NCBI RefSeq assembly: GCF_018619335.1
Contig: NZ_JAHHDX010000034.1
Span: forward strand, 1 to 64,000
Length of the DNA: 64,000 nucleotides
Direction of reading: 5' to 3'
DNA from: Alteromonas sp. ALT199
GTDB lineage: Bacteria > Pseudomonadota > Gammaproteobacteria > Enterobacterales > Alteromonadaceae
This document shows positions 254 to 57,909 of the stretch, one piece after another. The notes beneath the pieces were generated by a model. It was given only the letters and a program-made list of their open reading frames with translations. It was not told where the DNA came from and did not search any database. A program made the translations under genes and the position numbers. Position 1 is the stretch's first letter. Each line of letters opens with the position of its first letter.

Positions 254-316
254 TGGACAGACACTTCTATATTTCCTTAATCACCAACCACTCTTAACTG
301 CCAGTGGACAGACACT
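254..316 (+). repeat. Two direct copies of the GGACAGACACT word
   Basis: TGGACAGACACT occurs at 254-265 and again at 305-316, both preceded by G, in the roughly 310-base gap between the tRNA terminator and the M14 peptidase gene. Both copies read in the same direction as the downstream gene. I saw nothing else convincing in 241-549: no coding frame and no clear promoter. Confidence 0.9.
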
Positions 317-549: not shown

Positions 550-1455
550 ATGCAGAATTATCCAATTGGGACTCCGGGTGAGCCATGGAGCGAGAAAGAG
601 AAATCGCAGTGGAAATCTCAACAGACTGTGAAAAGAAGTTACCAAGAAGAAGTACTCGATAAACTTTTCAATATTATTCCTGAAGGCTTTGAACTAAAGC
701 AGTATGGTTCTCTTCCATACGATTCTGAGCGCTATCCGTTATATGCAGTAGTTCCAAATAACTTTGATACTAAAAAGACTACAGCGCTTGTTACGGGTGG
801 AGTTCACGGTTATGAAACGAGTGGCGTGCAAGGCGCGCTTCAGTTCATTGACACAAAGTTGTCACAGTATGCAGGGCAAGTAAACGTTGTAGTTGTCCCA
901 TGTGTAAGCCCTTGGGGATACGAGACGATAAATCGATGGAATCCAATGGCACTAGATCCAAATCGTTCGTTTTATAGCGACTCTCCGGCACCAGAGTCCG
1001 CTCAGCTTATGAAGCTAGTGTCTGTCCTAGGGTTGTCGTTAACGCTTCATATCGATTTACACGAAACTACCGATACAGATAACACTGAATTCAGACCAGC
1101 GCTGGCAGCACGGGATGGCGTTACCCATGATAATTGGAATATACCCGACGGTTTCTATACGGTCGCAAACACGCCAAATCCACAAATAGAGTTTCAAAAG
1201 GCTGTGATCAACGCTGTGAAAAAAGTAACGCATATCGCTCCTGCAGATGAGAACGGCAAGATTATTGGAGCGGATGTGGTAAGTGAAGGTGTTATCTGCT
1301 ATGACAAAAAGGCTTTGTACCTATGTGGCGGTATGACAGAAGCCAAATACGTTACAACAACGGAAGTTTATCCCGATAGTGATAACGCGACACCTGAAAA
1401 TTGTAACGATGCTCAAGTAACTGCAATTTGCGCAGCACTCGATTATTTAAAATAG
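550..1455 (+). CDS. M14-family zinc carboxypeptidase-like protein
   Basis: 301 aa with no signal peptide, so probably cytoplasmic. The zinc site of the M14/succinylglutamate desuccinylase fold is visible: HGYE (H86, E89) supplies the HxxE ligands and LHIDLHET (H167/H171) the later histidine. NRWNPMALDPNRSF near 128-141 matches the substrate-binding Asn-Arg region of the family. It should hydrolyse a C-terminal amino acid or an N-acyl amide; the substrate cannot be read from sequence. The ATG follows AGAGGTG at good spacing. It is a single gene followed by a terminator. Confidence 0.8.
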   Translation: MQNYPIGTPGEPWSEKEKSQWKSQQTVKRSYQEEVLDKLFNIIPEGFELKQYGSLPYDSERYPLYAVVPNNFDTKKTTALVTGGVHGYETSGVQGALQFIDTKLSQYAGQVNVVVVPCVSPWGYETINRWNPMALDPNRSFYSDSPAPESAQLMKLVSVLGLSLTLHIDLHETTDTDNTEFRPALAARDGVTHDNWNIPDGFYTVANTPNPQIEFQKAVINAVKKVTHIAPADENGKIIGADVVSEGVICYDKKALYLCGGMTEAKYVTTTEVYPDSDNATPENCNDAQVTAICAALDYLK

Positions 1456-1514: not shown

Positions 1515-1736
1515 GTGTTTACTTATTCTGCGGTTATTTACGACGGTAAAAAACAAAATTTAGTGCGATATGAATGCGGGACAGACACTGAGTTTGCTTC
1601 ATATCTTGAATCGCGTTTTGGTTGCCACGTTTGTTTATGGTCAAATAAAGAACTGTCGGAAAACACAATGGCGGCTATTGCTGCTTCGCATGCACAAAGT
1701 AAAAATGAAGGTTTAGATAAAACAGAAGCTTTATGA
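1515..1736 (+). CDS. Small hypothetical protein, GTG start
   Basis: 73 aa, family not recognised. The GTG start has a very strong Shine-Dalgarno (AAAGGAGG) 6 bases upstream, which supports a real gene. The protein has an N-terminal beta-like stretch (YSAVIYDGKK) and two cysteines (CHVC). A GGACAGACACT word lies inside at 1579-1589 and encodes Gly-Thr-Asp-Thr. Its TGA stop overlaps the ATG of the following DUF1289 gene (ATGA), so the two are probably translationally coupled. Confidence 0.6.
   Translation: MFTYSAVIYDGKKQNLVRYECGTDTEFASYLESRFGCHVCLWSNKELSENTMAAIAASHAQSKNEGLDKTEAL
1579..1589 (+). repeat. GGACAGACACT word inside the small gene
   Basis: Exact 11-base copy on the coding strand, read in frame as (G)TDT. 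Confidence 0.9.
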
Positions 1737-1906
1737 ACTCAACATCTCCGTGTATCGCCTTGTGTAAATTAAATGAAGATGAAATTTGCGTTGGATGCAA
1801 ACGTACTATTGATGAAATCGTAAAATGGCGGACATACACTGATAATCAAAAGCTGGCCGTTCTCGCCCGCCTAGAGAGTATAGAGAAGAATACTACTTCC
1901 CAATAA
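1733..1906 (+). CDS. DUF1289 family small Cys-rich protein
   Basis: 57 aa, read by hand because it is short. It begins MNSTSPCIALCKLNEDEICV and continues GCKRTIDEIVKW, giving the SPC-x3-C-x8-C-x2-C-x-R-T pattern and the later E-I-x-x-W of the DUF1289 family, small proteins with four cysteines expected to bind metal or an Fe-S cluster. Its ATG overlaps the stop of the preceding gene by ATGA. The codons for W-R-T-Y-T contain a near copy of the dispersed word (GGACATACACT, 1830-1840). Confidence 0.85.
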   Translation: MNSTSPCIALCKLNEDEICVGCKRTIDEIVKWRTYTDNQKLAVLARLESIEKNTTSQ

Positions 1907-1979
1907 TGTGATAATGATGAGCTAAAATTTGACGTTGTAACCCAAGTAAGAAACCGTTTTACAACAACCTCCTTTTTAG

Positions 1980-2130
1980 TGGACAGACACTCAAGCTTTA
2001 ACTCATCGCTTTAGCCGAAAATCCACATACTCACAGATAGGCTCACAGATAGGCTCATGGACAGACACTTACTCATCATTAGTACAATTCCCTTCAGCAG
2101 TGCCGTTAGTCGATTAAAGCGGACAGTCAC
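1980..2130 (+). repeat. Three same-direction copies of the dispersed word before dusC
   Basis: TGGACAGACACT at 1980-1991 and 2058-2069, and the T-form GGACAGTCAC at 2121-2130. A 13-base direct duplication (GGCTCACAGATAG-like) lies between them at about 2030-2055. The gap 1907-2227 holds no gene that I can see. Confidence 0.85.
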
Positions 2131-2227
2131 AAAGTTTATAAACTAAGCAGCAAAACCTGGCTGATATAAACGCTTTTTGCTAAACTCCCGCGCCAATTTT
2201 GTGTTCTATTAATCTGAGACGTTTGTA

Positions 2228-3192: not shown

Positions 3193-4167
3193 TCAAGATA
3201 AATATTTCTGAGCATTAGAAACGTTAGGGCGACATGCCCTTTGGCAACACCTAGCAAAATTTTCCATCATTTCTGGGCAGCCAACAGGACCGGTGAAGAG
3301 GGTTTCAAAGTTACTGGTCACTAATTGCCAGTTTTCTTTTGTCATCCCAAGTTTATTGAGCAAACGGTTAGGTAGTTTTGGCATTTTATAGCTACTAACA
3401 TTCCGCTCTGAATTCAACGTATCAGTAACAAGTTGCAAGTAATCTGTAAATGCGAAGGGCAGGCTCACAGCTTGCTTTTTCTTACTATCATTAAACGGCA
3501 TCAGAAACTTAGGTTCTTTATTCGAACGTTTGGCATTCAGGCGATATTGGATACTTGTATGGTAAGAGTTGCGTAGCGTCGTTGCTATTTTTGCTCGAAT
3601 AGGATTCAAATCGACGTAAGCCATTACAGTGGCTAGTGCTTTCTCATCAAGTATGGCTTGAGACCTAAACCTTCTTTCCCAGAAGTAGCCTTTACATTCA
3701 TCTTCTTTGTTAGCTCTTCGAGCAATATATTCATTGAGCATGCGCATAAACCAGCTGATGCTTTGAAGTCGCTCTCGATATATAACAGATAGTGATTTTA
3801 ATTCTACAAGTTCATCAGATGTTACTGAATCAAAGTTTTCTAAATATCGCTGCACTACAGGGGGACATTTATAAAACATTCTCCATCGAAGCAAGACCTC
3901 GTCCATCGTCCAGCCTTCAGCTCTGCCCTTTGCTATATGCAATACCACATGAATGTGGTTGTGCATAACAGCGTAAGCGCATAAGTCGATGGAGAAAGCT
4001 TGCGATAGTTTATGGAGCCTGTCTTGAATCCATTTTCTTCTATGCTCATAGTCTATACCAGTGCGGGCGTCGCGACCACAAAGGTAAGATTGCCTCACGC
4101 AGCGAGAAATGCAGTGGTAATAAGGCGTAACATCAGAATTTATTTGTTTGTAACGAGGTAAAGGCAT
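3193..4167 (-). CDS. RAYT / IS200-like HUH transposase (REP-associated tyrosine transposase)
   Basis: 324 aa. It opens with the PRYKQI...TPYYHCISRCVR stretch typical of Y1-transposase (RAYT) proteins of marine gammaproteobacteria. The HUH metal motif is HNHIHVV (H71, H73), and AYVDLNPIRA (Y184) contains the probable catalytic tyrosine. The C-terminal part ending in a Cys/Arg-rich stretch is typical of these single-copy chromosomal RAYTs. Such enzymes nick single-stranded DNA and, in other genomes, go with REP repeats. No IS ends or target duplications flank it; copies of the GGACAGACACT word lie 170-270 bases upstream of its start. It appears intact. Confidence 0.85.
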   Translation of the reverse strand: MPLPRYKQINSDVTPYYHCISRCVRQSYLCGRDARTGIDYEHRRKWIQDRLHKLSQAFSIDLCAYAVMHNHIHVVLHIAKGRAEGWTMDEVLLRWRMFYKCPPVVQRYLENFDSVTSDELVELKSLSVIYRERLQSISWFMRMLNEYIARRANKEDECKGYFWERRFRSQAILDEKALATVMAYVDLNPIRAKIATTLRNSYHTSIQYRLNAKRSNKEPKFLMPFNDSKKKQAVSLPFAFTDYLQLVTDTLNSERNVSSYKMPKLPNRLLNKLGMTKENWQLVTSNFETLFTGPVGCPEMMENFARCCQRACRPNVSNAQKYLS

Positions 4168-4339: not shown

Positions 4340-4439
4340 TGGACAGACACTCGAAGCCGGTAGTGGACAGCTATCAAACATTGCGAAAAACAATTAGATA
4401 ATAAAAAGGACGGTCACCCATTTTTCTAAGTGTCTGTCC
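4340..4439. repeat. Inverted doublet of the dispersed word upstream of the RAYT gene
   Basis: TGGACAGACACT at 4340-4351 (+) faces AGTGTCTGTCC at 4429-4439 (-). Between them are degraded copies: GTGGACAGCTATC from 4363 and GGACGGTCACC at 4409-4419. The group sits between the 5' end of the transposase gene and the 3' end of the next minus-strand gene. Confidence 0.85.
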
Positions 4440-4693: not shown

Positions 4694-5350
4694 TTATTGA
4701 GCTTTAAGAATTAAACTTCTTAAGTGTCTGTCCATAAACTCGGCGATTAGTGGTTGAGCGTCCGCATTTGGATGAATACCATCGTTTTGCATTAAGTTCT
4801 TATTCAGCGCTATGTCTTCAAGAAAAAAGGGGATTTTTTGAACGTCCTGAGCTTCCGCTACTTTTGTGAAGTTTTGCGTAAACATCTGTGTGTATCGCTT
4901 GCCGTAATTAGAAGGAATTTGCATTTCTTGCAGAAATACCACCGCATCATTATCTTTTGCAACGCTTACCAACGAATCCAAGTTACCTTTGATCTTGCCG
5001 ATATTATGGCCCTGAAGGCCATCATTACCTCCTAGTTCAATTAAAACATGAGTAGGGGTGTGTTGCTCTAATAAACGAGGAAAGCGCGCTAAACCACCGT
5101 CAGTGGTTTCTCCGCTTACCGCAGCATTTACAATATCAATCGGAATGTTGTCGTCTTGCCACATTTTTTGTAACAAACTGACCCATCCCTGATGTTGCTG
5201 CAATCCATAAGCCGCGGATAAACTGTCTCCTAAGATAAGTAAAACCGCATTTTCGCTTGTGTCGCCCTGCTCGGCTTGATCTGATAGCGCTTGAAAGGGT
5301 ATTAAAAGAATGAGTAAAAAAGCGAACAAATAACGAAATTTAACAAACAC
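4694..5350 (-). CDS. tesA: Multifunctional acyl-CoA thioesterase I / lysophospholipase TesA
   Basis: 218 aa from a GTG at 5350 preceded by AAGAGG (10-base spacing); a longer reading frame exists but runs into the divergent ybbA gene. The N-terminus (FVKFRYLFAFLLILLIPFQALSD) is a signal peptide, so the enzyme is periplasmic. SGNH-hydrolase blocks are visible: GDSLSAAYG (nucleophile Ser), GGNDGLQG, and DGIHPNADAQ (Asp/His). It hydrolyses acyl thioesters and lysophospholipids. The last codons (DRHLRS) contain an exact copy of the dispersed word. Divergent from ybbA, as in E. coli. Confidence 0.9.
   Translation of the reverse strand: MFVKFRYLFAFLLILLIPFQALSDQAEQGDTSENAVLLILGDSLSAAYGLQQHQGWVSLLQKMWQDDNIPIDIVNAAVSGETTDGGLARFPRLLEQHTPTHVLIELGGNDGLQGHNIGKIKGNLDSLVSVAKDNDAVVFLQEMQIPSNYGKRYTQMFTQNFTKVAEAQDVQKIPFFLEDIALNKNLMQNDGIHPNADAQPLIAEFMDRHLRSLILKAQ
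4723..4734 (-). repeat. Dispersed word inside the tesA 3' end
   Basis: AGTGTCTGTCCA on the plus strand, so the tesA coding strand reads TGGACAGACACT, translated as DRH. Confidence 0.9.
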
Positions 5351-6065: not shown

Positions 6066-8588
6066 ATGTCGACGTCTTTCAATTTAGGTTGGCGGCTTTT
6101 CAAGCATGAGGCTCGGCGCGGCGAACTCACCATTATATTGCTAGCTATTGTGTTATCTGTAGCGGCCGTGTTGTCGCTGTCGCTGTTTAGTGAGCGCTTG
6201 CAAGGAGCACTTAAGTCTCGCTCTGCAGCATTTATTGCAGCAGATGCTCAGCTTCGCTCAGACGACCCCATAAACGAAGAATGGTTAACTAGAGCGCAAG
6301 AACAAGGGCTTGCGACTGCAAAGCAAGTGGCGACACGCTCAATGGTATTTAAAGGCGACGAGATGTCGCTTGTCGATTTGCGAGCGGTAAATAGCGCGTA
6401 CCCCCTTAAAGGGACGGTCAATATTACCGATCAGCCTTTTGGAGAAAAACGTGCTACTGCAGAACTGCCACAGCCAGGTGAAGCCTGGGTTCAGTCTCGG
6501 CTTTTTCAGAGTTTAGGGCTCACTATTGGCGATGACATAGAAATTGGCGATGGCAATTTTACTGTCACGCATGTGTTGGTAGACATTCCTGATGCAGGTT
6601 TTAGTGTATTTAACACCGACCCAATCGCTCTTATTAATTTAGATGATTTGGATAAAACCGCGATTACCGGGCCAGGAAGCCGCGCCCGTTATGTTGGCTT
6701 TTTTGCTGGCGATTCAGGCGATATAGAAAGTTTCAACACCTGGTTATTGCCCCAGCTGAATGACGATTTACATTCGTGGCGGACAGTCGAAGATGATGAG
6801 TCAGCAATAGGACGCTCTGTAGCAAGTGCCGAGCGCTATTTTTTGCTGGCAAGTTTGTTAGCAATAGTATTAGCAGCGGTTTCAATTGCGGTTGCTGCTC
6901 AGCGTTATGCCCAGCGTCACTTTGACCCAGTAGCAATAATGAAAACCTTAGGGGCAACAAGCAACACAATCCGAAAAGTGTATTTGTTCCAAATTTTATT
7001 CATCACTGGGCTCGGTATTTTTATCGGCCTCGTTGTTGGTTTTATCGGTCAGCAAGTGGTGGTTTCGCTTGTAGCGGATAGAGTGGATGTATCTCTTGAC
7101 GTTTGGCACTGGCGACCACTTTTGATTGCCGTTGCTACAGGTGCTACCTGCGCTTTGCTTTTTTCTTTGTACCCTCTATTACAGTTATTTTCCGTGCCCC
7201 CACTTCGCGTATTGAGAAAAGACATCTCGGCGAATCTTCGCTCCAGAACCATTCAGTTTGTGGCTTCTGGCGGCGCGATATTTTTATTGATGTGGATGTA
7301 CAGTCGCGATCTAAAAATTAGTGCTATTTTATTCGTGTCTGGTGCCGCGCTCGTTCTGGGGCTGCTTGGAGCAACCTATATCTTGATTGCTATTGGCCGC
7401 AAGCTGGGCAGTGGCAGAATGGGCCCATGGCAATTAGCTTGGGCTCGTATAAAGCGCCGAGCTATGGACAACAGTGTGCAGCTTATTAGCTTCTCAGTCA
7501 CGATAATGCTGCTTCTAGTAGTGCTAGTAATGCGAAATGACATGGTTTCACAATGGCGTTCGCAATTACCCGAAGGTACACCAAACTACTTTTTGATAAA
7601 TATCACCCCGGACATACGGCCAGAGTTGGACAGACACTTCTCTGACAATGGCGTAAGTATCGAAGAGTTTTATCCTGTCATCCGTGGGCGATTTGTTTCG
7701 GTAAATGGGGAAGGGGTAAATACTGAAGTTTCTAAAGAAGACGAGCCAAATCGAGATGGTCGAAGAGGCCTAGGTAGAGAAGCGAACTTAACGTGGGGTA
7801 ACTCGTTACAAAAAGAAAACGAGATTATCGACGGGAGTTGGCATGGCTACGAGGATAAGCAATACAACGAAGGGTGGTTCCCTGTTTCTGTTGAAGAAGG
7901 TGTTGCTGAAAGATTAAATATTGAAATGGGCGATAGGCTTACTTTTAACGTGGGAAGCGAAATTGTTGAAACGAAAGTAACGAGTATTCGTACCGTTAAC
8001 TGGCAGACCATGCAGCCTAATTTCTTTTTCGTTATTCATCCGGATGCGATGGCAGCGTTTAGCCCGACATACATTACTAGTTTTTATCTGCCCACCGATA
8101 GAAAGGCTGAGTTAACGAACCTCCTAAAGCCGTTTTCGTCAATCACAATGTTTGATGTAGACGCTCGAATAAACCAACTTCGAGAGATTGTGGACCAGGT
8201 TTCTGTCGCCGTTGAGTTTATTTTGGTACTGGTTTTGATGGCGGGAAGTCTAGTACTGATCGCTCAGGTACAGGCGAGTATGGATGAGCGCAAGCAGGAA
8301 ATAGCCATACTTCGCACACTTGGTGCTAAGGGCGGTCTAATAAGGAAAAGCGTGATTTTTGAGTTTGTTATCATCGGTGTAGTCGCAGGTTTTATGGCTG
8401 CAATGGCCAACGAATTAAGTCTATACTTACTGCAAACCACAGTATTTCAAATGGAAGCGAGTTTGCATCCAGAGTACTGGGCTATAGCACCGAGCGTCGG
8501 CGCCATTGTTGTAGGCATATTAGGAGCGTTTGGTTGTTATCGACTGCTCACGCTTAATACTGGTCAGATGCTAAGGAATATGGTTTAA
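6066..8588 (+). CDS. ybbP: FtsX/MacB-like ABC permease YbbP
   Basis: 840 aa, about the length of E. coli YbbP. There is an N-terminal membrane segment near 25-45, a large periplasmic domain, a central set of helices at about 255-440, a second soluble domain and a last FtsX core near 700-835 with the characteristic ERKQEIAILRTLGA. It forms the membrane half of the YbbA-YbbP exporter; the substrate is not established. ATG immediately follows the ybbA stop, with AGAGGCAG as ribosome site. The word TGGACAGACACT encodes LDRHF in its second soluble domain. Confidence 0.9.
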   Translation: MSTSFNLGWRLFKHEARRGELTIILLAIVLSVAAVLSLSLFSERLQGALKSRSAAFIAADAQLRSDDPINEEWLTRAQEQGLATAKQVATRSMVFKGDEMSLVDLRAVNSAYPLKGTVNITDQPFGEKRATAELPQPGEAWVQSRLFQSLGLTIGDDIEIGDGNFTVTHVLVDIPDAGFSVFNTDPIALINLDDLDKTAITGPGSRARYVGFFAGDSGDIESFNTWLLPQLNDDLHSWRTVEDDESAIGRSVASAERYFLLASLLAIVLAAVSIAVAAQRYAQRHFDPVAIMKTLGATSNTIRKVYLFQILFITGLGIFIGLVVGFIGQQVVVSLVADRVDVSLDVWHWRPLLIAVATGATCALLFSLYPLLQLFSVPPLRVLRKDISANLRSRTIQFVASGGAIFLLMWMYSRDLKISAILFVSGAALVLGLLGATYILIAIGRKLGSGRMGPWQLAWARIKRRAMDNSVQLISFSVTIMLLLVVLVMRNDMVSQWRSQLPEGTPNYFLINITPDIRPELDRHFSDNGVSIEEFYPVIRGRFVSVNGEGVNTEVSKEDEPNRDGRRGLGREANLTWGNSLQKENEIIDGSWHGYEDKQYNEGWFPVSVEEGVAERLNIEMGDRLTFNVGSEIVETKVTSIRTVNWQTMQPNFFFVIHPDAMAAFSPTYITSFYLPTDRKAELTNLLKPFSSITMFDVDARINQLREIVDQVSVAVEFILVLVLMAGSLVLIAQVQASMDERKQEIAILRTLGAKGGLIRKSVIFEFVIIGVVAGFMAAMANELSLYLLQTTVFQMEASLHPEYWAIAPSVGAIVVGILGAFGCYRLLTLNTGQMLRNMV
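7627..7638 (+). repeat. Dispersed word inside ybbP
   Basis: Exact TGGACAGACACT on the coding strand, read as DRH, in a soluble-domain loop. Confidence 0.9.
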
Positions 8589-8604: not shown

Positions 8605-8703
8605 TGGACAGTCACTTTATTAAGTAAAGACGAAAGTAAGGCGAGTGGACAGACACTCGATAATGTAGAAGGCAGTCACTCAACTACATAGAGTGACTGT
8701 CCA
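8605..8703. repeat. REPIN-like cluster between ybbP and yfcH
   Basis: T-form TGGACAGTCACT at 8605-8616 (+), A-form TGGACAGACACT at 8646-8657 (+), a shortened GGCAGTCACT at 8671-8680 and T-form AGTGACTGTCCA at 8692-8703 (-). The 8646 and 8692 copies form an inverted pair whose arms (GTGGACAG.CACTC) match except at one central base. Each outer copy is in sense with the gene that ends next to it, so the cluster may serve as a convergent 3' end. Confidence 0.9.
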
Positions 8704-8725: not shown

Positions 8726-9622
8726 TTAGTCGCTGTATATCTCGTTCAACGCCTCTTCAACAGAAGGGAGCTCAAATTTAAAACCAGCAGCGGTAAGCTT
8801 TTGAGGAATGACCCGTTGTCCTTCTAGTATCATCTTTGATGACTCGCCCATTGCTATTTTCATAACGAAGCTAGGTACGTTAAAGAAGCAAGGGCGACCC
8901 AGCGCTTTCGCAAGAGTTATAGAAAACACCTTGTTCGTAACAGGCTCCGGAGCAGTTAAGTTAAACGCACCGGTACAAGCGCTATGTTCTAACAAAAACG
9001 AGATAGCACGGACTATGTCCTGTAAGTGAATCCAAGCTAAGTACTGATTTCCACTCCCCAGTGTACCTCCGGCACCTAGCTTAAACGGTAGTGCCATTTT
9101 ACCAAGCGCTCCGCCTTTCTCTGTGAGCACCACGCCAGTACGAAGCGTTACTACACGAGTTTTCGTTTGATCTACACCTTGAGCAATAGCTTCCCATTTT
9201 GCACACAAATCATGGGTAAATTCATCGTGAGGGGAAGTTTCTTCGGTAACAAGCCTATCACCTTGGCTACCATAGTAACCAATTGCAGAACCCGAAAGGA
9301 AAACTGACGGTGGTGTTTCACAGCTGTTTATTTTTGATACTAACTCAGCGGTTATATCCCACCGACTATCGCAAATCCTTTTCTTTTGAGTGTCTGTCCA
9401 ACGTTTGTCGGCGATAGGTTCACCGGCTAAATTTATAACAGCATCGAAACTCTCGAAATTTTTTATCGATGCAACGTTTTCTACAATATTAACGCTGTTA
9501 CCTAATTTATCCTTTGCCTTAGCAATGTCACGAGAAATCACGGTAACTGAATGTTTATCTGAACATCGCCGAATAAATTCGCTGCCAATCAGCCCTGTCC
9601 CACCGGTCAAAAGAATGTCCAC
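8726..9622 (-). CDS. yfcH: TIGR01777-type NAD(P)-binding epimerase-like protein YfcH
   Basis: 298 aa, atypical short-chain dehydrogenase. The Rossmann motif ILLTGGTGLIG is at the N-terminus, and SGSAIGYYGSQGD and the DUF1731 C-terminal domain (PSFVMKIAMGE..ILEGQRVIPQKL) identify the YfcH/TIGR01777 family; substrate unknown. Start is GTG at 9622 with AAGGAG ideally placed. It lies 22 bases after folX on the same strand, the same neighbour as in E. coli. The dispersed word at 9389-9400 encodes WTDTQ, where relatives carry a similar W-T-x-x-Q. Confidence 0.88.
   Translation of the reverse strand: MDILLTGGTGLIGSEFIRRCSDKHSVTVISRDIAKAKDKLGNSVNIVENVASIKNFESFDAVINLAGEPIADKRWTDTQKKRICDSRWDITAELVSKINSCETPPSVFLSGSAIGYYGSQGDRLVTEETSPHDEFTHDLCAKWEAIAQGVDQTKTRVVTLRTGVVLTEKGGALGKMALPFKLGAGGTLGSGNQYLAWIHLQDIVRAISFLLEHSACTGAFNLTAPEPVTNKVFSITLAKALGRPCFFNVPSFVMKIAMGESSKMILEGQRVIPQKLTAAGFKFELPSVEEALNEIYSD
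9389..9400 (-). repeat. Dispersed word inside yfcH
   Basis: AGTGTCTGTCCA; the coding strand reads TGGACAGACACT in the TDT frame. Confidence 0.9.
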
Positions 9623-11158: not shown

Positions 11159-11401
11159 TGGACAGACACTTGCTCGGATTTGTGCAAAGTACTTTAGAGG
11201 ACAGGCATTTTTTGAAGGAAGTGACTGTCCATTACAAGCTGACTGTCCATTTTAAGCTGCTGGTTCATAGAGCCTTAACGAGAAAGTAGTAAAAAGGACA
11301 GACACTCACATGTTTTGAGCAACCGTAATGTCGCATAGCTAAACAGTAAATTTAAAATGTGTCTGTCCGGTACTTTTTGCGAAAAATTAAGTGTGTGTCC
11401 A
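11159..11401. repeat. Two inverted doublets of the dispersed word between convergent genes
   Basis: TGGACAGACACT 11159-11170 (+), a decayed GGACAGGCA 11199-11207, AGTGACTGTCCA 11220-11231 (-), GACTGTCCA 11241-11249 (-), GGACAGACACT 11296-11306 (+), GTGTCTGTCC 11359-11368 (-) and a variant AGTGTGTGTCCA 11390-11401 (-). Outer-to-outer length is 73 bases in both doublets (11159-11231 and 11296-11368). No gene is visible in 11128-11468. Confidence 0.9.
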
Positions 11402-13906: not shown

Positions 13907-14038
13907 TGGACAGACACAGAGAAAATTAATTAGCAGCGTCAACAGCAGAAAAAACGAGGAAGTAAAGTACAGGTATGGACAGACACTCTAATTAAGAATG
14001 CGCATAAGTAGCAGGTTTGAAATTAATGTGTCCGTCCA
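13907..14038. repeat. Dispersed word cluster in divergent intergenic region, part 1
   Basis: TGGACAGACAC at 13907-13917 (+), TGGACAGACACT at 13976-13987 (+) and a one-mismatch GTGTCCGTCCA at 14028-14038 (-), the last two forming an inverted doublet 63 bases long overall. The gap 13743-14481 contains no open frame that I accept. Confidence 0.88.
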
Positions 14039-14150
14039 CAGTTTGCATGGTTTGGTTAAAAAAATCCTTCGTAAGGGACCACTAGTGCAAAAAGTTAGGA
14101 TGTCATTTGCGTTTAAGGTTATTGAGTAATCTTTACTTTGGCTTTGAAAA

Positions 14151-14459
14151 AGTGTCTGTCCACTGTATTTATTTTCTGATACAGCAAAGGGAGGAATTGA
14201 GCTTTTGAGTGACTGTCCATCATTTTCATTAAAACTTTTTAGAGATGAAATTGATAAGAGAGTGTCTGTCCGAACCTGTACTTATCTGGCGGCAGGTGGG
14301 AGTGACGATATCTCTTAATATTGTTTTTGGTAAGAAAATAGGTTGGTTTCTATTTCTTTGGCATGCCATGTGCGAGAGACAGGCTTCAGATAAACCAAAA
14401 GCTTGAAAGTAATGTGTTTGTTCACCTGCTCAAGATAGTAGAGACGTTGGACAGACACT
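14151..14459. repeat. Dispersed word cluster in divergent intergenic region, part 2
   Basis: AGTGTCTGTCCA 14151-14162 (-), AGTGACTGTCCA 14208-14219 (-), AGTGTCTGTCC 14261-14271 (-) and TGGACAGACACT 14448-14459 (+). The copy at 14261 continues as CGAACCTGTACT, the same extension found in the tandem array at 57806-57909. The last copy ends 22 bases before the start codon of the next gene, inside its probable 5' leader. Confidence 0.9.
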
Positions 14460-14481: not shown

Positions 14482-14946
14482 ATGTCTAGCGATATTATGA
14501 AAACAATGTGGAAAGCAATGTCAGATAGCCCAAAGGTGATGGTAGGCCTGGTTGGTGAGGATATGCATGCAGAGCCCATGTATGCTCAACTAGATAAAGA
14601 CGCTGACGGCGAGTTTTGGTTCTACACGAGTCGCGACAACCGTATTGCTAAAGGTGGGAAAGCAATGGTTCACTTTGCATCTAAGGGGCACGATGTGTTT
14701 GCGTGTATCCGAGGAAACCTTACCGTTGAATCACGCAAAGAGGTGATTGATAAATATTGGTCTAACCCTGTAGAAGCATGGTTTGAGAAAGGTAAAGATG
14801 ATCCTTCATTATTAATGCTTCGCTTTGAGCTTATAGATGCGGAGGTGTGGGATGCTGACCCTTCACTAAAAGGCATGTTTAAGATGATGACCGGTAAAAC
14901 GGTGAAGCCAAAAGAGATGGGTGATCATGAGAAGGTAGACCTTTAA
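14482..14946 (+). CDS. Pyridoxamine 5'-phosphate oxidase-like / general stress protein 26 family
   Basis: 154 aa split-barrel flavin-binding protein. The N-terminus (MWKAMSDSPKVMVGLVGEDMHAEPMYAQLD), the core FWFYTSRDNRIAKGGKAMVHFASKGHDVFACIRG and WSNPVEAWFEKGKDDPSLLMLRFELIDAEVWD match the GsP26-type Pyridox_ox_2 group, which binds FMN/FAD and is linked to stress rather than to PLP synthesis. Excellent ribosome site AAGGAGG. Single gene. Confidence 0.85.
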   Translation: MSSDIMKTMWKAMSDSPKVMVGLVGEDMHAEPMYAQLDKDADGEFWFYTSRDNRIAKGGKAMVHFASKGHDVFACIRGNLTVESRKEVIDKYWSNPVEAWFEKGKDDPSLLMLRFELIDAEVWDADPSLKGMFKMMTGKTVKPKEMGDHEKVDL

Positions 14947-15011: not shown

Positions 15012-15051
15012 AAGTGTCTGTCCACTATTGTCAGTGTCTGTCCACTATTGG
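15012..15051 (-). repeat. Two tandem 20-base units carrying the dispersed word
   Basis: AGTGTCTGTCCACTATTG occurs at 15013-15030 and 15033-15050, exactly 20 bases apart. Copies point in the same direction as the trp operon, but lie beyond its terminator. Confidence 0.88.
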
Positions 15052-15471: not shown

Positions 15472-16281
15472 TTATCCTTTTTCCGTAGCGGCTTTCATGC
15501 TCTCAACAAAGCTGCCTAGCTCGCTTAGCATTTTGTGACTGTCCGATAAATTGCCAGCGATGATGTTTACCGTCGCTGAACCGGAAATCGCGCCAGCGGC
15601 TCCTGCATCAATAGCAGATTTAACCTGTTCAGGCGTAGAGATACCAAAACCTAGCAATGCTGGAGCAGCTTGGTGTTTATTCAATCGCTCAATGAGCTCT
15701 GAAGCTGGGACGTTTGCGGCAGTTTCTGCACCGGTAACGCCCGCACGGCCTAATAGGTAAGTATAACCTTTTGAGTATTCGCCGATTTTTTCCATTGTTT
15801 CATCGGTAGCATTCGGTGGCGCAATCAAAATTTGTGAAATGCCCGTTGCTTCCGCCGCTTTCTGGAAAGGTGCCGCTTCGCGAATTGGCACATCAGCAAC
15901 CAAAATAGAATCAACGCCGGCCTCTTGCGCTTTACTGTAAAAATTCTCTACGCCCTGGGCCATTACCAAGTTGCTATAGAGTAGCAAGCCGATAGGCACA
16001 TCTGGATATTTTGCGCGAACGCGTGAAATTACACCCAAACAATCCGCTACTGTTACCTTGTTGCTCAATGCGCGAATGGCTGATGCTTGAATAGTAGGAC
16101 CATCAGCGATAGGGTCAGAGTAAGGGATTCCTAGCTCGAGTGCGTCAGCGCCGCTTTCTACCAACTGGCAAATAATGGCTTCAGATTGCGCTAAATCAGG
16201 GTCACCAACCATAACGAAAGGTACGAATGCGCCCTGGTTCTTTTCATCAAGGCCTGCAAACATTTGTGCATATCTGTCCAT
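15472..16281 (-). CDS. trpA: Tryptophan synthase alpha subunit
   Basis: 269 aa. It splits indole-3-glycerol phosphate to indole, which is channelled to TrpB. Catalytic E49 and D60 lie in [16 protein letters not shown], at the same numbers as in E. coli; the phosphate-binding GFGIS is near 212. Its start overlaps the trpB stop by one base (TAATG), typical of coupled expression. A T-form word at 15535-15544 encodes DSH near the C-terminus. Confidence 0.97.
15535..15544 (-). repeat. T-form word inside trpA
   Basis: GTGACTGTCC on the plus strand; the trpA coding strand reads GGACAGTCAC, translated as D-S-H. Confidence 0.8.
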
Positions 16282-17482: not shown

Positions 17483-18892
17483 TTAGTAACGGCGGCAAAT
17501 GGCAAAAAGCGCGTCGAGTTTTTCTTCGCTTTTCTCGCCGGGTGCGGTTTCCACACCTGAATTTACATCAATAGCACCGCTTCCGGTTGCAATAGCATCT
17601 GCAACGTTCTGGGCGTTGATACCGCCAGCAAGCACTAACTTATGCTTCGCTTCGATATCATTTAATAACTGCCAGTCGAACGCTTCGCCTGTACCGCCTT
17701 TCGCATCGCCTACCTGGCAATCTAAAAGCACGCGGCTTATAAGGCTGTTATTTAAGTGTCTGTCCACTGTTTCTGGAAGAGTGTCAGACGACGTTGCTTT
17801 AACGCCTTCAACTTTCCAAATTTCACAACCTTCTGGGAGCTTGTCTGCAAGCGCGGAAATGTAAGTTTCGTCTTCGCTACCATGTAGCTGAACGGCAAAC
17901 AAATTGAGTGAAGCAGCAAGGGAAGCAACAACATCAATCTCATGATTGACAAATACGCCCACAAAAGCACCATCAACGCTTTGCGTTATGGTCGAAGCCT
18001 GGGCTTCACTCACACAGCGTGACGATTTTTCTGCGAAGATAAGCCCGCCAAAGCTAGCGCCTCTATCAAACGCCATTTGTGCTTGTTCTGGGCTGGTTAG
18101 CCCGCACACTTTAACTGCGCCATTTACCAGTGTTTTCACTGCTCGTGGTAGGTCTGCCTCTGCCATTAGCGCGCTGCCCACTAAAAAGCCTTGGGATACA
18201 GGCGCTAAGCGCAGCACGTCTTGGTGCGTGTATATGCCCGACTCTGAAATAACCACATACTCGTGCTTAGCTTTTTCTAGCATGGGCACAAGGCGTTCGG
18301 TTGTAGCTAAATCGGTAGAAAGGTCGCGCAAATTGCGATTGTTAATACCAATGATACTAGCTTCAAGCGCTATTGCGCGCCCCATTTCTTCTTCATTGCT
18401 TACTTCCGTAAGAATGTCTAATGACAGAGCGTTAGCAACGCTTTCAAGCTCTCGATATTCGTCGTCATCAAGTACGCTTAGCATTAGTAAAACAGCATCA
18501 GCGTTGTAGTGACGAGCTAAATACACTTGATAGGTATCAACAAAAAAATCTTTGTTTAACACAGGCTGAGCAACGCGCTCAGTAACGTATGCTAAGTATT
18601 CAAATTTACCTTGGAAGTACTTCTCGTCTGTCAGCACAGAAATACCGGCAGCGTATGGCTTATATGCTGCTAAGATTTCGTCTAGATCGAAGTGCTCTCG
18701 AATAAGGCCTTTTGAAGGCGATGCTTTTTTGCATTCAAAGATAAAGCCTGCGTTTGGCTCACTTAGCGCTGCAAATAAACTCTTTTTAGAAGGAACTAGA
18801 TCAGCTTTGAAACTTTCTAGCGGAAGCGCCTCTTTGCGCGCAGCCACTTCTTCGCGTTTGTCTGCAACAATTTTCTCAAGCACATTAGCCAT
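17483..18892 (-). CDS. trpCF: Bifunctional indole-3-glycerol phosphate synthase / phosphoribosylanthranilate isomerase
   Basis: 469 aa fusion as in enterics. The first half (1-255) is the TrpC barrel: FECKKASPSKG, VLTDEKYFQG, NKDFFVD and IGINNRNLRDL. The second half is TrpF: VKVCGLTSPEQAQ, AVQLHGSEDE and LAGGINAQN..AI..GAIDVNSGVE. Overlaps trpD by eight bases. The dispersed word at 17755-17766 encodes DRH in a loop of the TrpF half. Confidence 0.96.
   Translation of the reverse strand: MANVLEKIVADKREEVAARKEALPLESFKADLVPSKKSLFAALSEPNAGFIFECKKASPSKGLIREHFDLDEILAAYKPYAAGISVLTDEKYFQGKFEYLAYVTERVAQPVLNKDFFVDTYQVYLARHYNADAVLLMLSVLDDDEYRELESVANALSLDILTEVSNEEEMGRAIALEASIIGINNRNLRDLSTDLATTERLVPMLEKAKHEYVVISESGIYTHQDVLRLAPVSQGFLVGSALMAEADLPRAVKTLVNGAVKVCGLTSPEQAQMAFDRGASFGGLIFAEKSSRCVSEAQASTITQSVDGAFVGVFVNHEIDVVASLAASLNLFAVQLHGSEDETYISALADKLPEGCEIWKVEGVKATSSDTLPETVDRHLNNSLISRVLLDCQVGDAKGGTGEAFDWQLLNDIEAKHKLVLAGGINAQNVADAIATGSGAIDVNSGVETAPGEKSEEKLDALFAICRRY
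17755..17766 (-). repeat. Dispersed word inside trpCF
   Basis: AGTGTCTGTCCA; coding strand TGGACAGACACT, read as V-D-R-H in a variable loop of the TrpF domain. Confidence 0.9.
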
Positions 18893-19916: not shown

Positions 19917-20541
19917 GGTTCGCTCCCTGTAACGTTAAATAATCAATACTTTGTTTTAACAGCAAACTGCCGTTGGCTGTTAAAATAGATTCTGGGTGAA
20001 ACTGAAAGCCCAACATGCGATCTTCGCTATTGTAAATTGCCATAACGGCTTCACTGCCGTCATCGTTTATTGTAGATGCGCAGACAGTAAGGCTTTCAGG
20101 TAAAGTATGTGCCACTAAAGAGTGGTAACGTGCTACATGTAAGGGCTGCTGCAAGTCTTTAAACATAGCATCTTCAGAGTGGGTAATGGCAGAAGACTTG
20201 CCGTGCATAACCTGAGTTGCACGACCTACACTACCGCCGTAATGCTCAACAATGGCTTGGTGGCCTAAGCAAATACCAATAACGGGGAATACGCCGTGAA
20301 CTTTTTTAAGCAGTTCAGGCATACAGCCGGCTTCGCTTGGTGCCCCTGGACCTGGCGACAGCATAAGAAGCACAGGGCCTTTCGTTGCTTGTTCCTGCAT
20401 TCTTTCAAACAATGCGTCTGCAGATACCGTGTTGCGATATACTTTTATATCTAGGTTTAAGGTACGCAATTCATCAACAAGGTTGTAGGTAAAAGAATCT
20501 ACATTGTCTAGTAGAAATAGGGTGGTCACTTGCTGGTTCAT
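19909..20541 (-). CDS. trpG: Anthranilate synthase component II (glutamine amidotransferase)
   Basis: 210 aa class I amidotransferase. Oxyanion loop SPGPGAPSEAG, nucleophile C91 in GICLGHQAI, and His/Glu of FQFHPESIL near the C-terminus. It supplies ammonia to TrpE. Four-base overlap with trpE. Confidence 0.96.
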   Translation of the reverse strand: MNQQVTTLFLLDNVDSFTYNLVDELRTLNLDIKVYRNTVSADALFERMQEQATKGPVLLMLSPGPGAPSEAGCMPELLKKVHGVFPVIGICLGHQAIVEHYGGSVGRATQVMHGKSSAITHSEDAMFKDLQQPLHVARYHSLVAHTLPESLTVCASTINDDGSEAVMAIYNSEDRMLGFQFHPESILTANGSLLLKQSIDYLTLQGANHA

Positions 20542-22250
20542 ACGTTGCCTCCTTCATTTAACGCAACGTCATTATTTTCAGCTTCTTCTTGAAGCGCGGC
20601 TTTGACTGCACCAATCACCGCTTGTGCTTTTGCACGTGTTTCGTCTGCTTCGGCTTGTGGTATTGAGTCATATACTACGCCAGCACCTGCTTGAATATAA
20701 GCTGTGCCGTTCTTCACAAAGGCGGAGCGGATAACAATACAGGTGTCCATATCGCCTTGGCCATTTAGGTAGCCTACTGCACCGCCGTAGCTGCCGCGGC
20801 GCTTTTCTTCTACTTCACGAATTAATGTGGCCGCACTTACTTTTGGTGCGCCAACTAGGGTGCCCATATTCATGCAGGCTTGATAAGCGTGCAGTGGATC
20901 TAAGTCGTCACGTAGCTGGCCAACCACACGCGACACCAGGTGCATAACGTGAGAATAGCGATCTACTTTAAGCAAGTCTTTAACATAGCGCGTGCCTGGG
21001 CCACTTACCTTTGCAACATCGTTTCGCGCAAGGTCAACAAGCATAATGTGCTCTGACTTCTCTTTGGTGTCTTCGCGAAGGTTTAGTTCTATGCGACTGT
21101 CCAAGTCTCTATCAATACTGCCATCAGGGCGCTTGCCGCGAGGACGTGTACCTGCAATCGGGTAAATCTCTACCTGATTACTTTCTCTTTCGTATTTAAG
21201 CGCTGACTCGGGAGAGGCGCCAAAAATGCTAAAAGCAGCATCTTGCATGTAAAACATGTAAGGGCTTGGGTTTGATTCTTTAAGTTTGGCGTAAGCAAGT
21301 AGTGGCGACGGGCAGGGGAGAGAGAATGTGCGCGAGGGCACAACCTGAAAAATGTCGCCGGCTAAAATGTGCTGTTTTAGGTCGAGCACGTGATTGCAAA
21401 ACTGTTCATCACTTAAATCAACGCTAACTTCAATATTTGGGTCAAAAGAAGAGTGTGACTGTCCGTTTTGGTTGTCTGAGTCGGGAACGAGTGACTGTCC
21501 ACTTTCTACTTTAGTAACCTTTACCGCATTTTTATTTACTAGCACGGGCTTGGCAGGCATATCGTGTAGCTGCTGATGAATTGCTTCTAATCGCTGGGCT
21601 ATAGAAAAGTATTGCTGAGCGACATCTTGTCCGCTAAACACACTGCCAATTAGATGCGTCTCGCGGGTTTGATGGTCAACGGTAATTAAGGTCTCTGCCA
21701 GGTAAAACACAAAGTCTGGACAGTCATTTTCACCTTCAGCTACGTCAGGTAACTTTTCAAAGCCTGCCAGCATGTCGTAGGCAAATACGCCGCCTAAAAA
21801 TATAGCGTGGGGATGTTGGCGAATAGGCGTTATTTTATTGATAACAATGCGAAGTGCGTCCATTACGCTTGCGGCCTTTAAGCGGCTGTCTTCGTCAAGC
21901 TCGCCGTCAGCTTCATCACACACCATCGTAATTGAAGTGTCTGTCCTTTCTTTAACATGCAAGCCGTCAGGGGCATGGGTAGCAAACAAAGGCAGTACCG
22001 AAGCGCCGTTGCCCGTCAGTGCTTTAACTTCTACACGGTTGCCTTGGCATTCCATGCGTAGAGCTGCATCAACCATTAATAGGCTTTGTAAGTCGTCTTT
22101 AGAGTCGATTTCTGCAGATTCCAAAAGCAGCGCGTTGCTTTTGCTTCTGCACAGATGGGCAAACGCGGCAAGTGGGTCGTCTACATAGTGTCCCACTTGC
22201 TCAATTGTCTCTACCTTGCCTGGGGACGTCCCCAGTTCCGCTAAACTCAT
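20538..22250 (-). CDS. trpE: Anthranilate synthase component I
   Basis: 570 aa from the ATG at 22250, which has GGAGAG nine bases upstream; the frame stays open further upstream through the attenuator, but that is leader. LLLESAEIDSKDD near the start is the tryptophan feedback-binding element. The chorismate-binding domain covers the second half (EIYPIAGTRPRGK, NLREDTKEKSEHIMLVDLARND, AGAGVVYDS). The linker between the two domains (about 235-285) is longer than I expect and carries two same-direction T-form words 35 bases apart, encoding GQSL and GQSH. Confidence 0.95.
   Translation of the reverse strand: MSLAELGTSPGKVETIEQVGHYVDDPLAAFAHLCRSKSNALLLESAEIDSKDDLQSLLMVDAALRMECQGNRVEVKALTGNGASVLPLFATHAPDGLHVKERTDTSITMVCDEADGELDEDSRLKAASVMDALRIVINKITPIRQHPHAIFLGGVFAYDMLAGFEKLPDVAEGENDCPDFVFYLAETLITVDHQTRETHLIGSVFSGQDVAQQYFSIAQRLEAIHQQLHDMPAKPVLVNKNAVKVTKVESGQSLVPDSDNQNGQSHSSFDPNIEVSVDLSDEQFCNHVLDLKQHILAGDIFQVVPSRTFSLPCPSPLLAYAKLKESNPSPYMFYMQDAAFSIFGASPESALKYERESNQVEIYPIAGTRPRGKRPDGSIDRDLDSRIELNLREDTKEKSEHIMLVDLARNDVAKVSGPGTRYVKDLLKVDRYSHVMHLVSRVVGQLRDDLDPLHAYQACMNMGTLVGAPKVSAATLIREVEEKRRGSYGGAVGYLNGQGDMDTCIVIRSAFVKNGTAYIQAGAGVVYDSIPQAEADETRAKAQAVIGAVKAALQEEAENNDVALNEGGNV
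21455..21501 (-). repeat. Pair of T-form words in the trpE interdomain linker
   Basis: GTGACTGTCC at 21455-21464 and AGTGACTGTCCA at 21490-21501. On the coding strand both read GGACAGTCAC, in the same frame (Gly-Gln-Ser), giving two degenerate repeats in a region of the protein that is free to vary. Confidence 0.88.
21936..21946 (-). repeat. A-form word inside trpE
   Basis: AGTGTCTGTCC; coding strand GGACAGACACT in the TDT frame (RTDTS). A weaker opposite-direction match, TGGACAGTCAT, lies at 21717-21727. Confidence 0.88.
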
Positions 22251-22277
22251 TTTTGCTACTCTCCAACTGCAAAAAGA

Positions 22278-22307
22278 TAAAAAAAAGGCCCGTATAAACG
22301 GGCCTTT
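22278..22307 (-). terminator. trp attenuator
   Basis: On the minus strand AAAGGCCCG / CGGGCCTTT encloses TTTATA and runs into eight Ts, 30 bases before trpE's start codon. The upstream leader bases AACGGGC (22343-22349), which overlap the leader peptide stop codon, can pair with GCCCGTT of the terminator's 5' arm, which is the expected antiterminator. Confidence 0.92.
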
Positions 22308-22345
22308 ATGTGTTTTCATTCACGCACTACAGTGCACACCGCCCG

Positions 22346-22516: not shown

Positions 22517-23386
22517 TTGCATAAGACATTGAAAATAGATCTACATAGCCACACAAAATTCTCTGATGGCCACTTAACGCCAGAAGAGTTAATCCTTCGC
22601 GCGCACACCATGCAGGTGGATGCGCTTGCCGTAACTGACCACGATACCGTTGCCGGTTTAGAAGAAGCGCACGCTACTCAAGCCAAGCAAAAACGAGCAC
22701 TAACCATTATTGATGGTGTTGAAATTTCCACCACTTGGCACAGTTTCGATATCCATGTAGTTGGATTAAATGTGGACAGACACTGCCCAACTTTTCTAGA
22801 ACGCTTGCAGGGTCAGTCACAAACCCGTGAAGCTCGGGCTGAAAAAATTGCTAATAAACTTGAAAAGTGTGGGTTTGAAGGTGTTTTAGCGCGGGCGAAA
22901 GCATTAGCAGGGGTTGGTCAGGTAACCCGAGCTCACTTTGCGAGAGTACTGGTTAATAATTACGGTGTACCGAGCATGGACGCCGCATTTAAAAAGTATC
23001 TGGGCAAAGGCAAACGTGCGGCGGTAAAAGCCGAATGGCCAAGCATTGAAACAGCTATTGAGTGGATTCAGGATGCAGGTGGTCAAGCGGTACTGGCTCA
23101 CCCAGCCCATTACGACATGACAGCAAAATGGCTTAGGCGCTTAGTTGCTTTGTTTGAACAAGCGGGTGGTGATGCCATTGAAACCGCGTTTCCTGGCATA
23201 AATAAAACCAAGCAAGATCTTATTAATGAACTTGCACAAACCCATCAGTTGTTAGCATCAGCGGGCTCTGATTTTCACTTTCCGTCTCGTTGGACAGAGC
23301 TGGGTAAGAACTTAGGCATTAGCAGTAAGCTCACTCCTGTATGGCATGATTGGAAACAATTTGAAGGGCAGATGGCTGAAGGTTAA
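22517..23386 (+). CDS. rnm: PHP-domain 5'-3' exoribonuclease / nucleotide phosphatase (Rnm, YciV)
   Basis: 289 aa. DLHSHTKFSDG, VTDHDTVAG, the long helical insert, AHFARVL and VLAHPAHY, and AGSDFHF supply the metal-binding His/Asp set of the PHP fold. E. coli Rnm (RNase AM) has the same architecture and the same place next to trpL. A stop codon lies just upstream, so translation must start at the TTG at 22517 or at another TTG four codons later. The dispersed word at 22773 encodes VDRH after the HVVGLN strand. Confidence 0.9.
   Translation: MHKTLKIDLHSHTKFSDGHLTPEELILRAHTMQVDALAVTDHDTVAGLEEAHATQAKQKRALTIIDGVEISTTWHSFDIHVVGLNVDRHCPTFLERLQGQSQTREARAEKIANKLEKCGFEGVLARAKALAGVGQVTRAHFARVLVNNYGVPSMDAAFKKYLGKGKRAAVKAEWPSIETAIEWIQDAGGQAVLAHPAHYDMTAKWLRRLVALFEQAGGDAIETAFPGINKTKQDLINELAQTHQLLASAGSDFHFPSRWTELGKNLGISSKLTPVWHDWKQFEGQMAEG
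22773..22784 (+). repeat. Dispersed word inside rnm
   Basis: TGGACAGACACT on the coding strand, translated DRH. Confidence 0.9.
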
Positions 23387-23535: not shown

Positions 23536-23547
23536 TGGACAGTCACT
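23536..23547 (+). repeat. T-form word upstream of yciO
   Basis: TGGACAGTCACT in the gap between rnm and yciO, 58 bases before the yciO start, same direction. Confidence 0.85.
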
Positions 23548-29668: not shown

Positions 29669-30030
29669 AACATGCACTTAAGGATAGAAGTGGATAGAAG
29701 TGGACAGACACCCGCTTATTTTAAGGAAATGAGCTGAATGCGTTAACTTAACAGCAATGTCGTCAAACAAGGTTGGTAATCCGAACGTCTTTTTGCGAAG
29801 CATTTAGCTTAAGGAAGAATGAGTGTGTGTCCACGAAGTGCAGGTTCACGGAGAGTATCTAACATGCACTTAAGGATAGAAGTGGACAGACACCCGTTTA
29901 TTTTAAGGAAATGAGCTGAATGCGTTAACTTAACAGTAATGTCGTCAAACAAGGCTGATAATCCGAACATCTTTTTGCAAAGCATGTAGCTTAAGGAAAA
30001 ATGAGTGTGTGTCCACGGAGTGCAGGTTCA
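29669..30030. repeat. Direct repeat of about 170 bases, each unit bounded by inverted dispersed words
   Basis: Copy 1 is 29669-29848 and copy 2 is 29861-30030, nearly identical with scattered substitutions. Copy 1 has an extra 10-base ATAGAAGTGG duplication. Each begins near GTGGACAGACACC (29700, 29882) and closes with GAGTGTGTGTCCAC (ends 29834 and 30016), giving a 133-base inverted-ended module. The gap 29430-30173 has no coding frame that I accept. Confidence 0.88.
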
Positions 30031-57805: not shown

Positions 57806-57909
57806 GAGTGTCTGTCCGAACCTGTACTTTTTTGTTTGGGTTGAGTGTCTGTCCGAACCTGTACTTTTTTGATTGGGTTGAGTGTCTGTCCCAAACTGTA
57901 CTTCGACCC
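57806..57909 (-). repeat. Three tandem 37-base units carrying the dispersed word
   Basis: Units begin at 57806, 57843 and 57880. Each starts GAGTGTCTGTCC, continues (C/G)(G/C)AA(C/A)CTGTACTT, and the first two end TTTTTTG(T/A)TTGGGTT. The core unit also appears once at 14260-14282. The rest of the gap 57712-58082 shows no gene. Confidence 0.92.

Follow-up and report, generated by a model that had tools for sequence, protein, structure and literature searches.

A short word repeated around a RAYT-type transposase gene of Alteromonas, between genes and inside them

The stretch of DNA that we analysed (hereafter the window, 64 kb in its full length) carries many copies of a short word, GGACAGWCACT, together with a gene for a putative transposase of RAYT type (Table 1). 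The gapped pattern is matched 33 times in the window, where shuffled sequences give 1.3 matches on average, and the exact 11-mer is present in 32 copies. The transposase gene has dus directly downstream and a gene for a GDSL lipase on its other side. Among RNA families, the only match in the window is a tRNA at 122-194. This tRNA-Glu and its surroundings (1-198) match several neighbouring places left of the locus in the genomes G013, G023, G027 and G035, so that the start of the contig probably lies within a cluster of tRNA repeats.

Table 1. Copies of the word and the transposase gene in the window (sense and antisense refer to the gene that holds the copy).
Feature	Positions	Strand	Basis or remark
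Word copies 255 and 306	255-316	+	Same direction; pattern search
Antisense word copy in ORF 550-1455	1017-1027	-	In G000 only, of 11 species compared
Word copies 1579, 1981, 2059; one-mismatch copies 1830, 2121	1579-2131	+	Pattern search
RAYT/TnpAY1 subclass-2.3-type gene, 324 aa, putative cognate enzyme	3193-4167	-	Pfam, motifs, fold
Inward doublet 4341(+)/4429(-), upstream of the RAYT gene	4341-4439		Pattern search, folding
Sense word copy in GDSL lipase gene, by substitution	4723-4733	-	In 10 of 12 species
Sense word copy in FtsX-type permease gene, by substitution	7628-7638	+	Lineage-specific word versions here
Cluster 8606(+), 8647(+), 8692(-)	8606-8702		Encloses inner hairpin 8670-8702
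Sense word copy in epimerase-family gene, by substitution	9389-9399	-	Species alignment
11160(+), 11220(-), 11296(+), degenerate 11358(-)	11160-11368		Two inward doublets, outward pair between
13977(+), 14151(-), 14208(-), 14261(-); degenerate 13908(+), 14027(-)	13908-14271		Pattern search
Word copy ending 22 bp before ATG of ORF at 14482	14449-14459	+	Pattern search
Tandem copies 15013, 15033; 20-bp period	15013-15043	-	Pattern search
Sense 10-mer copy (last base different) in trpA, by substitution	15534-15544	-	8 of 12 species
Sense word copy in trpCF, by substitution	17755-17765	-	Species alignment
Copies 21454 (one mismatch) and 21490 (exact) in species-variable TrpE loop, by insertion	21454-21500	-	Species alignment
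Sense word copy in trpE beside one-codon difference	21936-21946	-	Species alignment
Sense word copy in PHP-domain (trpH-like) gene, by substitution	22774-22784	+	Species alignment
Word copy between PHP-domain gene and Sua5/YciO/YrdC-family gene	23537-23547	+	Pattern search
182-bp tandem duplication, about 1.9 copies, 94% match, intergenic	29692-30030		Inward doublet of one-mismatch copies per unit
Tandem array of three copies, 37-bp period	57807-57891	-	Outlying part of halo

The protein encoded at 3193-4167 has a weak match to the Pfam family Y1_Tnp (28.8 bits, for a cut-off of 23), and its match to the NCBIfam family REP_Tyr_transpos (44.4 bits) is under the cut-off of 80. The Y1_Tnp search of the whole genome listed another gene only, the Y1 transposase gene of contig C57 (L001), whose match (E 2.6e-13) is stronger than that of the gene in the window. 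The translation contains HNHIH and YVDLNP; no helix-turn-helix domain was matched in Pfam at E 0.001. The AlphaFold2 model has a mean pLDDT of 88.9, and its best Foldseek match is 4er8_A, the E. coli TnpAREP bound to REP (probability 1.00, E 1.4e-3, no match reaching E 0.001). The protein is accordingly predicted to be of the RAYT / TnpAY1 class 2 type with the fold of TnpAREP, the subclass, 2.3, being assigned by motif, length and taxon against the entries of Table 1 of Quentin et al. (PMC6006769). An earlier sequence-only reading of the window had invoked a RAYT enzyme, and on this point it was right. Five species pairs give the gene a dN/dS of 0.05-0.14 (with a dS close to saturation for three of the pairs), which indicates that the gene is under purifying selection. 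The same genome carries a paralogous transposase (50% identity) on contig C118 (L086, 4760 bp); on this contig AGACAGGCAY, which is not the word of the window, occurs three times.

That reading had also described seven inward-facing doublets of the word and had likened them to REPINs, that is, to pairs moved as a unit by a RAYT. All seven exist, within one or two bases of the positions it gave, but both arms are exact in three only (4341/4429, 8647/8692 and 11160/11220), the arms at 11358, 14027, 29702, 29822, 29884 and 30004 having one or two mismatches. The cluster at 8606-8702, with its three exact copies, holds an extra copy with two mismatches at 8670. Two outward pairs, 11220(-)/11296(+) and 14261(-)/14449(+), are found in the window as well. 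Counting neighbours at most 200 bp apart among the 10-mer copies of the window, we found 12 pairs in the same direction, 5 inward and 2 outward; in the 13 gene-bearing genomes (455 copies) the numbers are 151, 57 and 11, counts which pool related species and are not independent. Inward and outward pairs are indeed unequal (57:11), a comparison proposed with the doublets as a check on them. When folded as single-stranded DNA, the seven doublets reach z scores of -1.7 to -4.0 (depending on the doublet, 0 to 11 of 200 shuffles fold as well) and the inner hairpin 8670-8702 reaches -4.6, but no hairpin tagged with GTAG is found, and GTAG is absent from the word. The core itself is no clear hairpin, as had been said from the start: two lone copies, taken as 18-mers, have z scores of 0.2 and -0.95. 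We also considered the mini-hairpin AGTG-GACAGA-CACT; we rejected it as a general rule for the recognised shape, since its fold is weak in the two copies tested and the 5' bases that it requires are not common to the other versions of the word. Between species, copies come and go: G027 lacks the trpE copy at 21490, and G023 lacks the copy at 1981.

Pairs in the same direction dominate over inward ones, and hence REPIN doublets are not the unit; their loops, moreover, differ in length and sequence. The word itself is real, and the doublets are a side-effect. A classical REPIN, with the inward doublet as the mobile unit of a RAYT, is scarcely credible here: the presence of a RAYT-type gene, the excess of inward over outward pairs and the folding of the doublets would all suit it, but the 151 same-direction pairs, the variable loops, the missing GTAG-tagged hairpin and, in the window's lineage, the missing dispersal over the genome speak against it.

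The key observation is the distribution of the word along the chromosome. The window's own genome, G000 (4.63 Mb, 178 contigs), has 38 exact copies, 32 of them in the window, while the reversed pattern, taken as a control in the same genome, occurs once. Contig C154, whose sequence aligns left of the locus in G023, holds two further copies near its start. Three genomes of the same genus are available as single contigs: all 45 copies of G023 and all 47 of G013 lie at most 77 kb from the orthologue of the transposase gene, and 34 of the 38 copies of G018 at most 100 kb from it. In these three genomes the density of this halo is highest from -10 to +15 kb of the gene, and the halo is off-centre, with a median offset of +5 to +8 kb. 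This demonstrates the locality of the word in the window's own lineage, where the copies are confined to one region; dispersal of the REPIN type is not supported there. We rejected the idea that the word is avoided in the rest of the genome: G000, G013, G018 and G023 have 0 to 4 copies outside the halo, like the controls (the reversed pattern, and genomes without the gene).

The genome G009 has neither the gene nor any copy of the word at this locus; it has 99 copies genome-wide and nine homologues of the gene elsewhere. In this genome 48 of the 99 copies lie at most 25 kb from a homologue (11 expected by length) and 18 at most 1 kb from one (0.6 expected); the other 51 lie more than 25 kb from any homologue, and some of these form arrays, with 5 to 13 copies each, at a distance of 42-106 kb. 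The family as a whole therefore shows locality as a strong tendency, and only the window's own lineage shows it strictly; the locality counts leave out G025 (95 copies, 20 homologues). Alteromonas sp. IB21 has a different word, AAGACACCCAC, and 13 of its 16 copies fall in a 28-kb stretch which holds its transposase gene. The search for a halo in G061, G062 and G063 gave mixed pictures, G061 and G063 being without a clean single halo with the patterns used.

We then compared the locus in 23 genomes, in 15 of which the gene is present here and in 8 absent. For four of the gene-less ones (G003, G005, G006 and G011) a search at E 0.001 gives no homologue anywhere; the other four (G002, G009, G014 and G026) have diverged homologues elsewhere. 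Between dus and the PHP-domain gene, the number of exact copies is 1 to 27 in 14 gene-bearing species and zero in the 8 gene-less ones (in G002, G003 and G005 the span is shorter and does not reach dus; G034 is left out of this count); the two lowest numbers, 1 and 5, belong to the two lineages whose words are shifted. The halo at this locus depends on the transposase gene. A tree built from five proteins of the neighbourhood joins the species that bear the gene in one clade (14 of 21 rows, SH-aLRT 100), and the best reading is that the gene is a vertically inherited, selectively constrained (domesticated) resident of its place between dus and the GDSL lipase gene. The copies might be supposed to be sites of an unrelated regulator, or an RNA signal acting in the region, a supposition with which their mostly sense orientation inside genes would agree. 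We hold this to be very improbable, as these genes lack the word in species that do not have the transposase at this place, and as related words bound transposase genes throughout the family at unrelated loci.

This last observation comes from a scan of named genomes, restricted to the best 80 of 573 homologue loci, with up to 10 kb on each side. Counts of k-mers, made with no preset word, gave related words in many of these 80 loci. The degenerate pattern RGMCASNCAY occurs 76 times on the plus strand and 4 times on the minus strand within 250 bp upstream, and 67 times on the minus strand and 5 times on the plus strand within 500 bp downstream (the gene ends being those of the matches), while the reversed pattern occurs 5 times in all upstream and downstream bins together. 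Measured from the start and stop codons, the distances are mostly 73-114 bp upstream and 180-240 bp downstream. The same pattern was rejected as a test of total counts, since just 24 of the 80 loci exceed all 30 permuted patterns; the informative test is that of position. With the patterns used, 37 of the 77 usable loci have end words at both ends, 25 at one end and 15 at none. In 9 of 13 pairs the edges of the homology blocks fall within about 20 bp of the word (judged by eye, with one-letter variants allowed), and in the 4 others the alignment is essentially limited to the coding part. The strand bias of the end positions, taken with these edges, means that most of the genes scanned do have terminal inverted words, and the end position is in this way demonstrated for the family. 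Near the gene of the window the word is close on the upstream side only, because dus lies directly downstream.

Around 45 right and 50 left ends we found 91 partial matches of the ends to their own loci, 79 of which include the word. With a query that extended 15 nt beyond the word, 64 of these 79 have their outer edge 6-11 nt beyond it, whereas the inner edge varies, 46 of them reaching only 10-31 nt inward from the outer edge of the word. Truncated copies of the ends are thereby demonstrated; 11 copies span the full query and are parts of further units. Additional copies or fragments of the transposase are present within the same locus in 15 of the 77 loci. In Microbulbifer (L095, 4323-17544), about five transposase units and fragments follow each other, which suggests that whole units hopped locally or were duplicated in tandem. 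Upstream at L117, L121, L122 and L123, short flanks just outside the end word are repeated several times, and are possibly traces of repeated end joining.

The word also changes along with the enzyme. On a protein tree of 50 homologues having a word at most 130 bp upstream, the version of the word changes 29 times, as compared with a mean of 35.8 after shuffling, and none of 200 shuffles gave a number as low; taken singly, several versions cluster on the tree no better than chance. Two deeper lineages at the window's own locus, represented by the orthologues of G010 and G028, have words of their own. For that of G010, GGACACACACT, 17 of the 19 copies in the genome fall within about 70 kb of the gene; for that of G028, TTGGACAGTCA, 30 of the 40 copies fall within about 85 kb of the gene and ten lie elsewhere. 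Set side by side, the versions read GGACAGACACT, GGACACACACT (G010) and TTGGACAGTCA (G028). G023 too has GGACACACACT, in seven copies, every one of them inside its halo. The site in ftsX reads GGACAGACAC in 12 of 13 species of the main clade (that of G027 differs by one change), GGACACACAC in G010 and TTGGACAGTCA in G028, and seven gene-less species have none. In G010 and G028 it is the only coding site with the word of the lineage itself, the epimerase site of G010 having the word of the main clade and not that of G010. At the level of sequence, these comparisons show that the word drifts together with the protein, and the link between word and enzyme is strong.

The copies inside protein genes bear on how the array arose. 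Those in the ftsX, trpCF, trpA, epimerase, PHP-domain and GDSL genes originated by substitution, with no change of length and with altered amino acids, and some species have intermediates with one mismatch at coding sites. TrpE (20538-22319, 593 aa) has a species-variable loop near residue 282, partly made of the word-derived residues SGQS/NGQS, which is shorter or absent in relatives without the transposase here. Over ten coding copies of G000, the diversity at third codon positions is 0.221, against a gene-matched 0.466 (P 5e-5), and this conservation of third positions is demonstrated, whereas first and second positions vary more in the copies (0.123 against 0.080), probably because several copies were gained within the clade. 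With respect to the conservation of the whole window of alignment, 4 of the 10 copies (ftsX, epimerase, trpCF and one of trpE) are in the top 5% of their gene and six are not. Across the 19 genes of the comparison the distinct coding sites number 12, of which 11 are sense and 1 is antisense; counted copy by copy, the numbers are 121 sense and 14 antisense. Near matches in gene-less species have a background of 98:61, so that the bias of 11:1 (P about 0.025, by hand) is only suggestive, and ten other loci have none (10 sense and 8 antisense).

The copies could be neutral, slowly decaying leftovers of local hops of the transposase unit, without function. The extra transposase copies or fragments of 15 of 77 loci, the truncated copies of the ends and the intergenic position of most copies (310 of 455 in the 13 gene-bearing genomes) are as such debris would have them. 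We nevertheless find this explanation improbable, since the resident gene has a low dN/dS, third-position diversity is reduced inside the coding copies, and amino-acid changes were accepted in enzymes such as TrpCF. Taken together, the constraint on the gene, which the dN/dS demonstrates, the conserved third positions and the shifted words argue for an array whose maintenance is due either to selection or to re-writing.

Selection could act without any copying. The enzyme would then be a useful local factor binding DNA or RNA, or nicking, and its sites would arise by point mutation, in the manner of transcription-factor sites. Such an array would account for the substitutions at coding copies with their one-mismatch intermediates, for the conserved third positions, for the sense orientation of 11 of the 12 distinct sites and for the ftsX site, which follows each lineage's own word. 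Copying is however what the truncated copies of the ends, with their nearly fixed outer edge, point to, as do the tandem duplications and the variable insertions of the TrpE loop; the sense bias is modest against its background and absent in the ten other loci. This explanation seems to us unlikely, if less so than that of neutral debris.

We consider it rather probable that GGACAGWCACT is the recognition word of the enzyme, that in the family it bounds a unit of about 1.25 kb, and that it was multiplied locally and its copies maintained. The scheme would be the following. Lineage versions of the family word RGMCASNCAY mark the ends of the gene unit as an inverted pair, and a RAYT-type enzyme (HUH/Y1, subclass 2.3-like) would read the version GGACAGWCACT. 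It would probably nick single-stranded DNA at the word, and the short pieces that start at the word's outer edge would be rejoined or annealed nearby. The outcome would be tandem, inverted, truncated and patch-like copies near the gene, over tens of kilobases, which would then be kept by selection or by continual re-writing, tracking the drifting specificity of the enzyme. The single-strand step follows from what is established for HUH/Y1 enzymes (summary in PMC6006769). Coding copies made of substitutions only are not what one would expect if copies of the ends were simply inserted. More tentatively, and giving it somewhat less than an even chance, we propose that a domesticated HUH/Y1 enzyme writes its own word around its gene, coding sequences included, probably by local patching of single-stranded DNA, and that the array tracks its specificity. 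Recognition of the word and cleavage at it, local copying as the source of the copies and a benefit to the cell are what we infer from this whole.

If real, such a locus-bound, self-maintaining system of sites would be of a kind without description in the literature searched, as far as that was accessible: neither GGACAGWCACT nor a local halo is reported among the matches listed in the open-licence literature on RAYT/REP, IS200 in Alteromonas, TIRYT, local transposition and repeats. Its enzyme/word pairs would be many, natural and usable for specificity tests. Local spread including the amino-acid-changing copies in trp genes and ftsX would show an enzyme derived from a mobile element shaping its chromosomal neighbourhood, and the way in which short bacterial repeats multiply could be put to the test within a small region for which 15 species offer orthologous sites.

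The system resembles REP and REPIN sequences with their RAYTs, as these are described in PMC8266576 and PMC8049555, in having short repeats tied to a Y1/HUH enzyme and a version of the repeat matched to the enzyme. Unlike them, the word here has no GTAG tag and a single copy forms no hairpin, and its copies are concentrated near the gene and stand inside genes by substitution. Three features of REP/REPIN systems fail here, namely the GTAG hairpin as a unit, the genome-wide dispersal (for the window's lineage; the copies of G009 are partly dispersed) and the inverted doublet as a unit. The TIRYTs, or TIRtrons (De Nocera et al. 2013, PMC3733652), are Y1 genes flanked by inverted repeats, as is the case here family-wide. 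Some of their repeats have the consensus GGGGWSAS, of which GGACAG fits the part GGWSAS, the two leading G being absent here, and the repeats occur as dimers and clusters too. According to Quentin et al. (PMC6006769), 20 of 26 TIRYTs belong to subclass 2.1, with helix-turn-helix tails; a local halo and substitution copies in genes, as seen here, were not found described for TIRYTs in the available text of PMC3733652. The closest likeness in protein features is to TnpAY1 of subclass 2.3 (PMC6006769): a length of 324 aa for a median of 325 aa, the tyrosine motif YVDLNP, the NH-hydrophobic-H motif, and an occurrence in Alteromonadales with several diverged copies per genome. The genes of this subclass are described there as having no identifiable REP-like structures (Quentin et al. 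2018), unlike the present one, where a short word without a hairpin bounds the unit and forms a local halo; the word would be a candidate target for a widespread transposase subclass reported to have none.
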